From assembly GCF_016593255.1 (NCBI RefSeq), contig NZ_AP023212.1, forward strand, positions 2,148,001 to 2,212,000: a DNA stretch of 64,000 nucleotides, written 5' to 3'. The position numbers and the translations under genes are program-made. The stretch comes from Hydrogenimonas urashimensis (GTDB lineage Bacteria; Campylobacterota; Campylobacteria; Campylobacterales; Hydrogenimonadaceae). Below, piece after piece: positions 55,884 to 60,698 of the stretch (position 1 is the first letter of the stretch; the number at the start of each line of letters is the position of its first letter). The notes under the pieces were generated by a model, which did not search any database, was not told where the DNA came from, and saw only the letters and a program-made list of their open reading frames with translations.

Positions 55884-57944
55884 TTGAAACAGTGGAATTA
55901 CAGATACACAGACAGAGAGTCGTTTGAGGCCTACATCAAAGAAAAAGGAGTTGAAAAAAGCGATTCTTTGCTGATTCAAATCACCACGGGAGAAGCGGAT
56001 GCCGAACGCGTCGATACGATTCGCGACGAGATCCTGCGGGTGCTCCCCTTTGCGGTTATCATCGGCATGGGAAGCGCATTGCAGCTATGCGAGGGCGATT
56101 TTTCCCTCAAAGAAACGGTGCTGACGCTGACTCTGTTTGAAAAGAGCCATCTGTCCGAATGGAGTTTTGTGCTCCCTCCCGATGAAGAGTGTGATGCCGA
56201 CAGAGTGGCACAATTGCTCGCTTCGCATGTCACCGATGATACGAAGGGGATTCTTCTTTTTACCAACGCGGTCTCTGCGGATATCGAAAGCCTTTTCATC
56301 GCGTGCCGCTCCTATATCTCCATACCTGTTTTCGGCGGTCTCGCCAGCTCCTTTGATCCGGACAACCCCTCCCCGTTCGTCATCTCCACGGAGAAGGTCT
56401 TTTGTGAAGATGCGGCGGTTGCCGTTCTTTTGAAAGGGGAGGCACTTTCTATCCATTTCAGTCGACTCTTCGCATGGGAGTCCATTGGAAAAGAGTTTAC
56501 GGTGACACGGGCAGAAGGGCGCAGACTCTACGAACTTGATGGCAAGAACATCATGGATGTCTATTCGAAATATTTCGGCCCTCTGACGAGAGAGAGGCTT
56601 CTGTATCTCTCTTTGGCCCACCCCTTTATCCGCCATTCGAAGGAGTTCGGCGAAGTTTCCAGGGTTTTGCTCCAGTATGACGGTGAGTGCGGCATCTATA
56701 CGGGCAGGTTCGAAGAGGGGGAGAAGGTTCAAATCGGTTTTGGCAACTACAAAAAGATGGTCGACTGCACGGATCGAAGCCGGGAGCTTTTCAGCCAGAT
56801 ACCCATGGAAGCTTTCTGGGGATTTGCCTGTATCTCCTATATGCGGGGTTATACCGATCTTCTGAAAAAATCTCTGCTTCCCTACCGAAAAAATTTCCCG
56901 TCGATCCACTTTGCCATCACTTTCGGGGAGTTTGGATGGATCGATGGGATCAATTCGTTCATGAACAATACCATCGTCAGGGTCTCACTCAGCGAAGATC
57001 CCGAAGCACGCTTCGTCATTGAGGATGTGGATATTGACCTGGATGAAAAGGACAGGCTGCTTGAGACGCTCTCTACGCTGGTGACATCGAGCAGCCGTGA
57101 AATCATCGAATTGAACCGCTATCTGGAAGAGGAGGTAAAAAAACGGACACAGGAACTGGCGGATCTCAACGCTTCGCTGGCTAGGCGCATTGAACAGGAG
57201 GTTCAGCGAAACCGTGAGAAGGACAAGATGCTCTATCACCAGTCCAAACTGGCGGCGATGGGGGAGATGATCAACAATATCGCCCACCAGTGGCGCCAGC
57301 CTCTCAATATCATCGCGCTGGTGATGCAGGATCTTTCACTCAAATCGAAGTTGGGAAATCTCACGCCGGAGATGGTTGTACTGGCGGAAAAAAAGATCAA
57401 CGACACACTCAAGTATCTCTCCGATACGATTGACGATTTTCGAAGTTTCGCTTCGGAAAGAGAAGAGTCCTCGCGACCGGGACGGTTTGAAGCGGGAAAG
57501 ATGATAAAAGATGCCATACGGCTTATTTCGGTCGTTTTGGAGGATGTCCATATCCGGCTCAGGTTGGAACTTCCCGAAATCGATTGCGAAGTGAACGGTC
57601 GGGCAAACGATCTCAAGCAGGTGATTTTGAATCTTGTCTACAACGCCATCGATATTCTAAAAGAGAGAGAAATCGAAAATCCGGAAATCACCATCGGCAT
57701 GCGGTGTGACGGAAAAGTGATCCTTTATGTCCATGACAACGGGGGAGGCATCGAAAAAGAGTTGCTCGACAAGATTTTCGAACCCTATTTCACGACGAAA
57801 TACCAATCAAGAGGGAGCGGACTGGGTCTTTATATGTCCAAAATGATCGTCGAAAAACGCTTTAAAGGAGAGATCGAAGTGAAAAACTGTCCTGAAGGCG
57901 CCTGTTTCGAGATCAAAATACCGGTAGCGGCGGTCGTCGCATGA
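55884..57944 (+). CDS. Soluble FIST-domain sensor histidine kinase (copy 1)
   Basis: 686 residues, no membrane segment or signal peptide, so cytosolic. N-terminal FIST domain (about 1-220: DDTKGILLFTNAVSADIE, ISIPVFGGLASSFD) and FIST_C (about 225-385: GKEFTVTRAEGRRLYELDGKNIMDVY, AFWGFACISYMRGY). A coiled coil at about 395-445 leads to the kinase core: H-box MINNIAHQWRQPLN with phospho-His near residue 468, N-box LKQVILNLVYNAID near 577, G1 HDNGGGI near 616, F/G2 EPYFTTK and GSGLGLYMSKM. FIST domains are proposed to sense small molecules such as amino acids. TTG start with AAAGGA eight bases upstream. Overlaps copy 2 by ATGA. Confidence 0.92.
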   Translation: MKQWNYRYTDRESFEAYIKEKGVEKSDSLLIQITTGEADAERVDTIRDEILRVLPFAVIIGMGSALQLCEGDFSLKETVLTLTLFEKSHLSEWSFVLPPDEECDADRVAQLLASHVTDDTKGILLFTNAVSADIESLFIACRSYISIPVFGGLASSFDPDNPSPFVISTEKVFCEDAAVAVLLKGEALSIHFSRLFAWESIGKEFTVTRAEGRRLYELDGKNIMDVYSKYFGPLTRERLLYLSLAHPFIRHSKEFGEVSRVLLQYDGECGIYTGRFEEGEKVQIGFGNYKKMVDCTDRSRELFSQIPMEAFWGFACISYMRGYTDLLKKSLLPYRKNFPSIHFAITFGEFGWIDGINSFMNNTIVRVSLSEDPEARFVIEDVDIDLDEKDRLLETLSTLVTSSSREIIELNRYLEEEVKKRTQELADLNASLARRIEQEVQRNREKDKMLYHQSKLAAMGEMINNIAHQWRQPLNIIALVMQDLSLKSKLGNLTPEMVVLAEKKINDTLKYLSDTIDDFRSFASEREESSRPGRFEAGKMIKDAIRLISVVLEDVHIRLRLELPEIDCEVNGRANDLKQVILNLVYNAIDILKEREIENPEITIGMRCDGKVILYVHDNGGGIEKELLDKIFEPYFTTKYQSRGSGLGLYMSKMIVEKRFKGEIEVKNCPEGACFEIKIPVAAVVA
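57192..57334 (+). repeat. Near-identical segment shared with the second FIST kinase gene (copy 1)
   Basis: 143 bases covering the coiled-coil end and H-box. By my count they differ from 59246-59388 at two positions only, both silent, although the FIST domains of the two genes are widely diverged. A second shared block of 62 bases lies at 57393-57454. Confidence 0.85.
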
Positions 57945-59992
57945 AACAGTGGGCCCACGATTATGTCGACAAAGCGGGATTGGCGAAATTTGTCGCCGAG
58001 GAGGGCATCGGTTCTTACGATGTTCTGCTCGTGCAGGTCAACACGAGCGCGGTCGATCCCCAGCACATTGAAGAGGTCCGTTCTGCCATTACCCAGGTTC
58101 TGCCCAATGCCGTGATCGCCGGGGCGAGCAGCATGCTGCAGTTTGCCAGATCGAAACTGATGAAGCATCATATCGTTCTGGGTATCACGGCGTTTGAAAA
58201 AAGCAGACTGACACTTTTTGAATATATTTTCCCCACCCGGAAAGAGTGTGACTACACGGCTGTTGTTAGGAATCTGGAGGGGCTGCTGCAGGAGGATACC
58301 AAAGGGATACTGCTGCTGACCAATACCATCCATTTCGATATCGAAGCGCTGATAAAAGAGAGCAACAGATTTTTTCCGCACATTCCCATATTCGGGGGGA
58401 TCTCATCAAGCGATGAACCCTTCGACAATTTCATCATTTTCACACAGAACCGGATTTTTTCGGAAGAGGGGATTGTTGCCGTTTTGATGCACGGAAGCGC
58501 CCTTGATGTCTCGTGCAACTATTTTTTCGACTGGGAACCGATTGGACGGGAGTTTACGGTTACCCGTGCGGATGGACGGTATCTTTATGAACTGGACGGA
58601 GAGCGCATCATCGATGTCTATGAAAAATATTTCGGTCCGTTGGATACGAAAAAGCTCCTCAAGCTCGCTTTGGCCCATCCTCTTATCAAATACTCCAAAG
58701 AGTTCGGTCCCGTAGCCAGGGCACTTCTGGAAATCGACAACGAAAAAGGTCTCTTTACGGGCAAGTTTGTCGAAGGCGAAAAGGTTCAGATAGGCTTTGG
58801 CCATTACAAACGGATGATGAGCCGGTACGAAATCATTCCGGAAGTCTATCGGGATGTTCCTTCCCAGGCGCTCTGGTTTTATATATGCATCTCCTATCAG
58901 TACGGATATCTCGGGATTTTGAATGCATCCTCAACGTTCTACAAAGAGTGGGAAAAGATCTATGCGCTTTTGACTTTCGGGGAGTTCAGCCACAAAGCGG
59001 AACGGAACCGTTTTCTCAATTTCACGCTGACTAGAGTGGCATTGAGCGAGGAGAGCGACGCGAGAATCAAACTCAATCTGACGGAGGTCAAACACGATCC
59101 GAGGGATGAACTTCTAGCGACACTCTCGACACTGGTCGCTTCGAGCAGCAGTGAGATCATGGATCTCAACAGACATCTGGAAAAGGAGGTGGAAAAGCGG
59201 ACAAAGGAGCTGGCCGAACTCAACGCCTCTTTGGAGAAGCGCATCGAACAGGAGGTTCAGCGAAACCGCGAGAAGGACAAGATGCTCTATCACCAGTCCA
59301 AACTGGCGGCGATGGGAGAGATGATCAACAATATCGCCCACCAGTGGCGCCAGCCTCTCAATATCATCGCGCTGGTGATGCAGGATCTCTCCCTGAAGGC
59401 GCACATCGGCCATCTCTCCCCGTCGGCAATTGCCGTCGCCGAAAAGAAGATCAACGACACACTCAAATATCTCTCCGATACGATCGACGATTTTCGAAGT
59501 TTCGCTTCCGGCGGAGAGGCCTATACCCACCCGGGGACACTGGAGGTGTGCAAAACGGTGCGCGAAACCGTGCGACTGGTTTCGATCGTTCTCGAGGATG
59601 AAAAGATCGGTCTCAAACTCTCCCTGCAGGAAAAAGAGGTTGTCGTGAAGGGAAACCCCAACGATCTGAAACAGGTGCTTTTGAATCTCGTCTACAATGC
59701 CATCGACGTTCTCAAAGAACGACAGATAGAGGAGCCGGTCATCAAAATCGAGGTGAAAACCATCAAAAACAGGGTGGCGATCGTCGTGCGTGACAATGGC
59801 GGGGGGATCGATCCCCGGATCATCGACAAGATTTTCGAACCCTATTTCACGACAAAATACAAAGCTCGGGGCACGGGACTGGGGCTTTACATGTCAAAAA
59901 TGATCGTTGAAAAACGTCTGGGAGGAAAAATCAGCGCCCGCAACACACGAAGCGGGGCTGCATTCTGGATGGAGTTGCCGATCAGGGCTTGA
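57941..59992 (+). CDS. Soluble FIST-domain sensor histidine kinase (copy 2)
   Basis: 683 residues, a tandem paralogue of the preceding gene with the same layout: FIST (about 1-220: EDTKGILLLTNTIHFDIE, HIPIFGGISSSD), FIST_C (to about 385: GREFTVTRADGRYLYELDGERIIDVY), coiled coil, H-box MINNIAHQWRQPLN (His near 467), N-box LKQVLLNLVYNAIDV, G1 VRDNGGGI, and GTGLGLYMSKM. The sensor halves are clearly diverged while the kinase halves are almost the same, so the two probably read different ligands but act on the same regulator. ATGA overlap with copy 1. Its 3' end overlaps the convergent response regulator gene by 11 bases. Confidence 0.92.
   Translation: MKQWAHDYVDKAGLAKFVAEEGIGSYDVLLVQVNTSAVDPQHIEEVRSAITQVLPNAVIAGASSMLQFARSKLMKHHIVLGITAFEKSRLTLFEYIFPTRKECDYTAVVRNLEGLLQEDTKGILLLTNTIHFDIEALIKESNRFFPHIPIFGGISSSDEPFDNFIIFTQNRIFSEEGIVAVLMHGSALDVSCNYFFDWEPIGREFTVTRADGRYLYELDGERIIDVYEKYFGPLDTKKLLKLALAHPLIKYSKEFGPVARALLEIDNEKGLFTGKFVEGEKVQIGFGHYKRMMSRYEIIPEVYRDVPSQALWFYICISYQYGYLGILNASSTFYKEWEKIYALLTFGEFSHKAERNRFLNFTLTRVALSEESDARIKLNLTEVKHDPRDELLATLSTLVASSSSEIMDLNRHLEKEVEKRTKELAELNASLEKRIEQEVQRNREKDKMLYHQSKLAAMGEMINNIAHQWRQPLNIIALVMQDLSLKAHIGHLSPSAIAVAEKKINDTLKYLSDTIDDFRSFASGGEAYTHPGTLEVCKTVRETVRLVSIVLEDEKIGLKLSLQEKEVVVKGNPNDLKQVLLNLVYNAIDVLKERQIEEPVIKIEVKTIKNRVAIVVRDNGGGIDPRIIDKIFEPYFTTKYKARGTGLGLYMSKMIVEKRLGGKISARNTRSGAAFWMELPIRA
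59246..59388 (+). repeat. Near-identical segment shared with the first FIST kinase gene (copy 2)
   Basis: Partner of 57192-57334. A second shared block of 62 bases, with two differences, lies at 59447-59508. Confidence 0.85.
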
Positions 59993-60536
59993 TGTTGTAG
60001 AACGATTTCAGCGCGCGGATGATCATCGCGTTTTTGGAGATGCGCTCGGTTTTCGCATCGCTGTGGACGCGATCGTAAAGGTCCATCGGAAGCGTGATCG
60101 AGAAGGTCTTCGTTTCGATCTTTTTGCGTTTGGCGATTGTTTGGTTGATGTTTTTAAGCAGATCGATGATCTTGTTGGAGTCGATCGGCTTTTGTATGAA
60201 ACTGTCGACGCCGATCTTGATCGCTTCGGAGATCTTGCTCATATCGTTGCTGGCCGAAATGATCACGATGATCTGATCCGGATTGATTTCACGGATTTTC
60301 CTCGCAAGTTCCAACCCGTCCATGCCAGGCAGTATAATGTCGATGAAAATGACGTCGGGTTTTTTCTTTTTGTAAATTTCCAGAGCCTCTTCCGCGTTCA
60401 TTGCGGAATCGACCGAATTGAAGAAATTTCCGAAGGTTGAAACCATCAATTCGTTCGCCTCTTTCTCGTCTTCTACCACCAATGCATTCAGTTTTTTGGT
60501 TTCGTTGGCGATTTTGATAATGTCGTTGTCGATCAT
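59982..60536 (-). CDS. Response regulator: receiver domain with ribbon-helix-helix-like C-terminus
   Basis: 184 residues from the ATG at 60536 (AAGGAG seven bases upstream); a longer frame to 60605 crosses the promoter. Residues about 18-130 are a receiver domain: LVVEDEKEAN (acidic pair), VIFIDIILPGMDG (phospho-Asp), IISASND (Ser) and FIQKPID (Lys). After a short helical linker, the last 42 residues (KTFSITLPMDLYDRVHSDAK, then ISKNAMIIRALKSFYN) have the strand-helix-helix pattern of CopG/Arc DNA-binding domains. Usual outputs are winged helix, LuxR or Fis. It is transcribed toward the two FIST kinases and overlaps the second by 11 bases, so it is their likely partner. The DNA-binding role is inferred from the RHH pattern. 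Confidence 0.85.
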   Translation of the reverse strand: MIDNDIIKIANETKKLNALVVEDEKEANELMVSTFGNFFNSVDSAMNAEEALEIYKKKKPDVIFIDIILPGMDGLELARKIREINPDQIIVIISASNDMSKISEAIKIGVDSFIQKPIDSNKIIDLLKNINQTIAKRKKIETKTFSITLPMDLYDRVHSDAKTERISKNAMIIRALKSFYNIKP

Positions 60537-60566: not shown

Positions 60567-60575
60567 AGTATAACA
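60567..60575 (-). promoter_or_regulatory. Extended -10 promoter of the response regulator gene
   Basis: TGTTATACT on the minus strand, about 31 bases before the ATG at 60536. Confidence 0.5.
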
Positions 60576-60698
60576 GCAAAGAACAAAAAGAAAATTTAAC
60601 ATCATGAATTATGTTTGTCACAGAAATGTCACAGAAAATCAATGAATGAAGTTTGAAATGTAAAGTGCTGTATCCTGGGTTTTGGATGGAGGGGCGTG

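Follow-up and report, generated by a model that had tools for sequence, protein, structure and literature searches.

The window analyzed here is a stretch of 64,000 nucleotides, positions 2148001 to 2212000 of a 2.30-Mb single-contig genome, and it carries two tandem genes for cytosolic FIST histidine kinases that face a gene for a response regulator. The first kinase, K1 (55884 to 57944, + strand; 686 amino acids, TTG start), is a tandem paralog of the second, K2 (57941 to 59992, + strand; 683 amino acids, ATG start), and the two genes overlap at an ATGA junction. The regulator gene (59982 to 60536, − strand; 184 amino acids) is convergent to K2 with an overlap of 11 bases, and its product is composed of a receiver (REC) domain at approximately residues 17 to 128, with D66 as the phospho-acceptor, a long helix, and a predicted C-terminal ribbon-helix-helix (RHH) domain. 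The coordinates, the ATGA junction, and the convergent overlap given in a first-pass annotation of this DNA agree exactly with the open reading frame listing and the sequence. The arrangement is not due to chance, since it recurs in 17 of the 18 genomes of the genus Hydrogenimonas.

Pfam profiles identified FIST_N above the cut-off in both kinases (84 and 104 bits) and HATPase_c at 79 and 83 bits, with HisKA slightly below the cut-off in each. The catalytic set is intact, comprising a phospho-accepting histidine in the DHp domain (His468 in K1 and His467 in K2) and the N, G1, F, and G2 boxes expected of a histidine kinase. FIST_C gave no Pfam match in full-length K1 or K2, and K2 residues 219 to 393 alone scored below the cut-off (20.7 bits, E = 4.8e-4; cut-off, 28.5). 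Homologs aligned across this region carry a bona fide, full FIST_C, and a divergent FIST_C is likely present in both proteins. The FIST, FIST_C, and kinase architecture proposed initially was thus recovered for FIST_N and the kinase core, with FIST_C in a divergent form under the Pfam threshold. No membrane segment was evident in either kinase, the highest 19-residue hydropathy means being 1.8 (K1) and 1.3 (K2), in agreement with their earlier description as soluble.

A search of the FIST region against PDB sequences returned only weak matches to glutamate-1-semialdehyde aminomutase and no close FIST structure by sequence. His246 (K2 numbering; window positions 58676 to 58678) is invariant in all 18 Hydrogenimonas FIST kinases compared, whereas the equivalent residue is Phe or Ile in the six remaining FIST proteins from Campylobacterota in the comparison, which makes this histidine a candidate for ligand binding. 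Two further positions distinguish the paralogs, as C192 and H288 are found in 15 of 15 K2 proteins and are replaced by F/I/P and N, respectively, in all three K1 proteins.

K1 and K2 are full-length paralogs that arose by tandem duplication, with 54% identity from end to end. The two different sensors of the first-pass annotation are thus duplicates and not unrelated proteins. K1 was found in 3 of 15 informative Hydrogenimonas genomes, and its absence from the 12 others, all with sufficient flanking sequence, indicates loss or patchy gain. The K1 copies form their own clade in the tree, which places the duplication before the divergence of the three species with both kinases. At the nucleotide level, identity between K1 and K2 is 53% in the FIST region and 94% in DHp helix 1. 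The near-identical segments span 57184 to 57356 in K1 and 59238 to 59410 in K2 (both + strand), the latter holding His467, with about three mismatches, read off the mismatch map, in the 173 bp around His468/467. In a second species, the K1/K2 pair shares a different DHp variant, with RK and S in place of QR and N. The near-identical segment is present in two of the three tandem-copy genomes, with a variant that differs between species, and this concerted pattern points to probable gene conversion, which can arise simply because the DHp segment is the most conserved stretch. The DHp segment sets partner choice and kinase dimerization, and its homogenization within a species is as expected if K1 and K2 must both fit one receiver.

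The receiver of the regulator matches Response_reg with 94 bits, and E22, D23, D66, S94, and K116 are invariant in 38 regulators, so that the acidic pair, the phospho-accepting aspartate, the Thr/Ser position, and the lysine are all present. The AlphaFold model of the regulator shows a REC fold, matching the receivers of NtrX, Spo0F, and KdpE, and, C-terminal to it, a long helix that leads into an extended strand and a pair of helices. The nearest regulator paralog in the same genome is of the OmpR type, with a receiver that is 37% identical, and the kinase beside it is, after K1, the closest to K2 (41% identity). Because these two paralogs adjoin each other, the receiver and kinase lineages run parallel. 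This pair of a PAS kinase and an OmpR-type regulator (genome positions 820166 to 821369) is the nearest paralogous system, and it suggests a swap of output domains between the OmpR and RHH types.

The output domain comprises regulator residues 142 to 184 (59985 to 60113, − strand), with a TKTFSITLP ribbon followed by two helices. RHH_1 lies below the Pfam cut-off in this protein (17.8 versus 20.5 bits) and also at the equivalent place in orthologs, where the best listed score is 20.2 bits. A phmmer search of the C terminus against PDB sequences gave no match, and NCBIfam returned no specific family for it. A model of the isolated 57-residue tail reached a pLDDT of 93 to 97 in residues 21 to 50, and nearly all of its top PDB matches in Foldseek are RHH proteins. 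The best chains of CopG align with a TM score (target) of about 0.8 and a root mean square deviation of 1.1 to 1.3 Å over 39 to 40 columns; other RHH matches include AmrZ, Arc, MatP, CdbA, ParG, and RHH antitoxins. The E values of the leading matches are modest (0.1 to 1) because the domain is tiny. Profile-profile comparison with 22 Campylobacterota RHH proteins (RHH_1) gave a full-length, in-register alignment (E = 3.2e-5, one against one). The first-pass annotation had described this C terminus as RHH-like and had named a different predicted fold as the outcome that would overturn the idea; structure prediction and profile comparison both returned RHH, and the assignment is confirmed at the level of a predicted fold. 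From Hydrogenimonas to Sulfurimonas, there is almost no variation in the ribbon (TKTFSI[TS]LP) or at the start of helix 2 (ISKNA). A plasmid search for the RHH output domain found none.

Upstream of the regulator gene lie two TGTTA sites (60571 to 60601, − strand), which read on the + strand as TAACAG (60571 to 60576) and TAACA (60597 to 60601), and one of them overlaps a −10-like TATACT. In the Sulfurimonas group, TGTTA/TAACA occurs upstream of the regulator in 32 of 36 cases compared with 81 of 219 control upstream regions, with a mean per 110 bp of 1.97 versus 0.52, and GTTA elements spaced by 10 bp occur in 7 of 36 and 1 of 219 of these regions, respectively. The Hydrogenimonas regulator upstream regions likewise share TGTTA. 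The sites and their enrichment in relatives suggest that the regulator may control its own gene through a candidate TGTTA/TAACA operator. Part of the enrichment may reflect extended −10 elements and the lower GC content of these regions (0.23 versus 0.31), and these factors, with the shared ancestry of the sequences, weaken the case. A Pho-box-like direct repeat, TGTCA-N6-TGTCA (60616 to 60631), is also located upstream of the regulator gene, and similar TGTCA repeats precede it in several other Hydrogenimonas genomes; matches to the pattern occur in the window no more often than expected by chance, and the repeat was rejected as a signal.

The single Hydrogenimonas genome in which the regulator was not found is an incomplete, fragmented metagenome-assembled genome. 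The 17 regulator-bearing genomes all have a K2-type FIST kinase gene convergent to the regulator gene, with syntenic flanks of hisD/(mutY) on one side and cinA on the other, and the pairing of K2-type kinase and regulator is evolutionarily stable in the genus. Named relatives of the regulator at 90 to 97% identity are mostly from Hydrogenimonas. Among 397 sampled genomes of the phylum Campylobacterota, 51 contain the regulator, and almost all of these belong to Hydrogenimonas or to one other family, with Sulfurimonas, Sulfuricurvum, and relatives as its named members. A second search, within the class, found the regulator as a single copy in every positive genome. Outside Hydrogenimonas it occurs mostly in the Sulfurimonas group, usually with no adjacent kinase, and it belongs to a wider Campylobacterota family that mostly occurs with no FIST kinase. 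The neighborhood survey proposed at the outset therefore supports the pairing across Hydrogenimonas, with the tandem copy limited to the three genomes noted above and the regulator elsewhere mostly on its own.

Outside Hydrogenimonas, a kinase of the HQWRQP type is arranged tail to tail with the regulator in 13 of 68 loci, a count in which most kinases are confirmed by the HQWRQP motif and some lie at contig ends, and the sampled neighbors of this type form one clade (support, 100/98). This recurrence of the convergent geometry in a second kinase clade was counted in favor of a partnership between kinase and regulator. Most adjacent kinases outside the genus carry PAS sensors according to Pfam; at locus L092, the neighboring kinase has no Pfam sensor domain. 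In several of the PAS kinases, the first 60 or so residues show homology to the N terminus of the FIST kinases (hhalign E = 8.7e-11). A profile of this segment searched against 1,257 open reading frames at E ≤ 1 retrieved only FIST kinases and six PAS kinases, which lie beside the regulator at L127, L131, L149, L159, L167, and L169. By homology, the segment preceding the PAS domains appears to be a FIST remnant, a putative trace of sensor swapping, from FIST to PAS, in front of one and the same regulator. The kinase-domain tree neither recovered nor rejected a shared origin for the FIST kinases of Hydrogenimonas and the PAS kinases (AU, P = 0.35).

We favor, with a probability of roughly 0.7, a cytosolic two-component system in which two paralogous FIST inputs serve one RHH DNA-binding output; its ligand, phosphotransfer, DNA binding, operator, and targets are inferred. 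K1 and K2 would each detect an intracellular small molecule through the FIST sensor, and by analogy with characterized FIST proteins, the best ligand lead is heme or nitric oxide (PMC12570481, PMC8846402). Ligand binding would alter autophosphorylation at His468 or His467, and both kinases would phosphorylate one receiver at D66. This modification may then shift the dimer state of the receiver and with it the pairing or spacing of the C-terminal RHH units, which would bind repeated TGTTA-type sites, including those in front of the regulator's own gene. Other kinases may phosphorylate the regulator as well, given that most Sulfurimonas-group orthologs are without an adjacent kinase. Counting against this system, the characterized FIST systems NosP/NosK and CdpA signal to c-di-GMP enzymes and not to DNA-binding regulators.

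The true partner of the regulator could instead be K2, or the ancestral kinase, only, with K1 a redundant or decaying duplicate that has no separate input. The scarcity of K1 fits this, as do its non-ATG start codons in all three cases (TTG, GTG, and TTG), but its own clade shows a copy kept since before the species split, its kinase boxes are all intact, and its sensor differs consistently from that of K2 at C192 and H288, and we regard this alternative as unlikely. The RHH tail might, for its part, be mainly a module for dimerization or protein interaction in a regulator with no specific DNA binding. RHH domains do also serve as dimerization cores; against such a role here stand the near-invariance of the ribbon and helix-2 start and the repeated TGTTA sites 5′ of the regulator gene in both Hydrogenimonas and Sulfurimonas, which leave it improbable. 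Poorer still are the prospects of kinases and regulator being mere neighbors, with K1 and K2 acting on another receiver. The genome does contain about 20 other receiver-domain matches, and outside Hydrogenimonas the regulator mostly stands by itself, but the pairing is kept in 17 species, the same geometry recurs in a second kinase clade, and the paralogies of receiver and kinase are parallel. Turning from these alternatives to the favored two-input system, a bolder form of it can be imagined, in which K1/K2 heterodimers formed through the homogenized DHp helices integrate the signals of two FIST ligand sites that have diverged, while REC-RHH constitutes a distinct Campylobacterota response regulator class in which phosphorylation tunes how far apart the ribbon dimers sit on TGTTA repeats; we consider this speculative and rather unlikely.

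Each component has precedents: FIST kinases, tandem kinases, and RHH repressors belong to known kinds. The system resembles NosP/NosK/NosR (NahK type), in which FIST, as a cytosolic sensor, controls histidine kinase autophosphorylation (PMC12570481). The regulator gene lies in the same operon in NosP systems and is a convergent neighbor here; NosP systems have FIST on its own polypeptide and a c-di-GMP enzyme as output (PMC12570481), whereas in K1 and K2 the FIST domain and the kinase form one protein, which has been duplicated, and the predicted output is RHH. As in OmpR/PhoB-type regulators, to which the nearest paralog in the genome belongs, the receiver precedes a DNA-binding C terminus, with an RHH ribbon in place of the winged helix. 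The C-terminal 43 residues share the predicted fold and sequence pattern of CopG/Arc/MetJ repressors, including AmrZ and NikR, but are tied to a phosphorylatable receiver; NikR joins RHH to a metal-sensing domain. RHH is also combined with two-component domains in Arc-type RHH-HisKA-REC proteins of Lokiarchaeum (PMC5847659), where it precedes a kinase-REC fusion, whereas here it is the output at the C terminus of a regulator that is a protein by itself. This archaeal protein is the sole related mention in the openly searchable literature, which yielded no description of RHH as the output of a response regulator. Judged from that literature and general knowledge, REC-RHH is an unusual response regulator output and not a proven new class.

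An RHH output would extend the few ways in which response regulators bind DNA, and it would do so through a single-copy gene conserved in Hydrogenimonas and the Sulfurimonas group, lineages that include chemolithotrophs of hydrothermal vents. The locus is also a natural example of duplicated kinases whose sensors have diverged while the partner-recognition segment stayed near-identical, apparently by gene conversion, and its relatives exemplify sensor swapping, from FIST to PAS, before one regulator. At one locus outside the genus (L100, genome G423), the regulator directly adjoins hisD, which also flanks the Hydrogenimonas locus, and has no kinase, suggesting either kinase loss or a later insertion. 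The genome that contains the window additionally encodes a stand-alone FIST_N+FIST_C protein of 389 amino acids (1166389 to 1166967) that is NosP-like in domain content.
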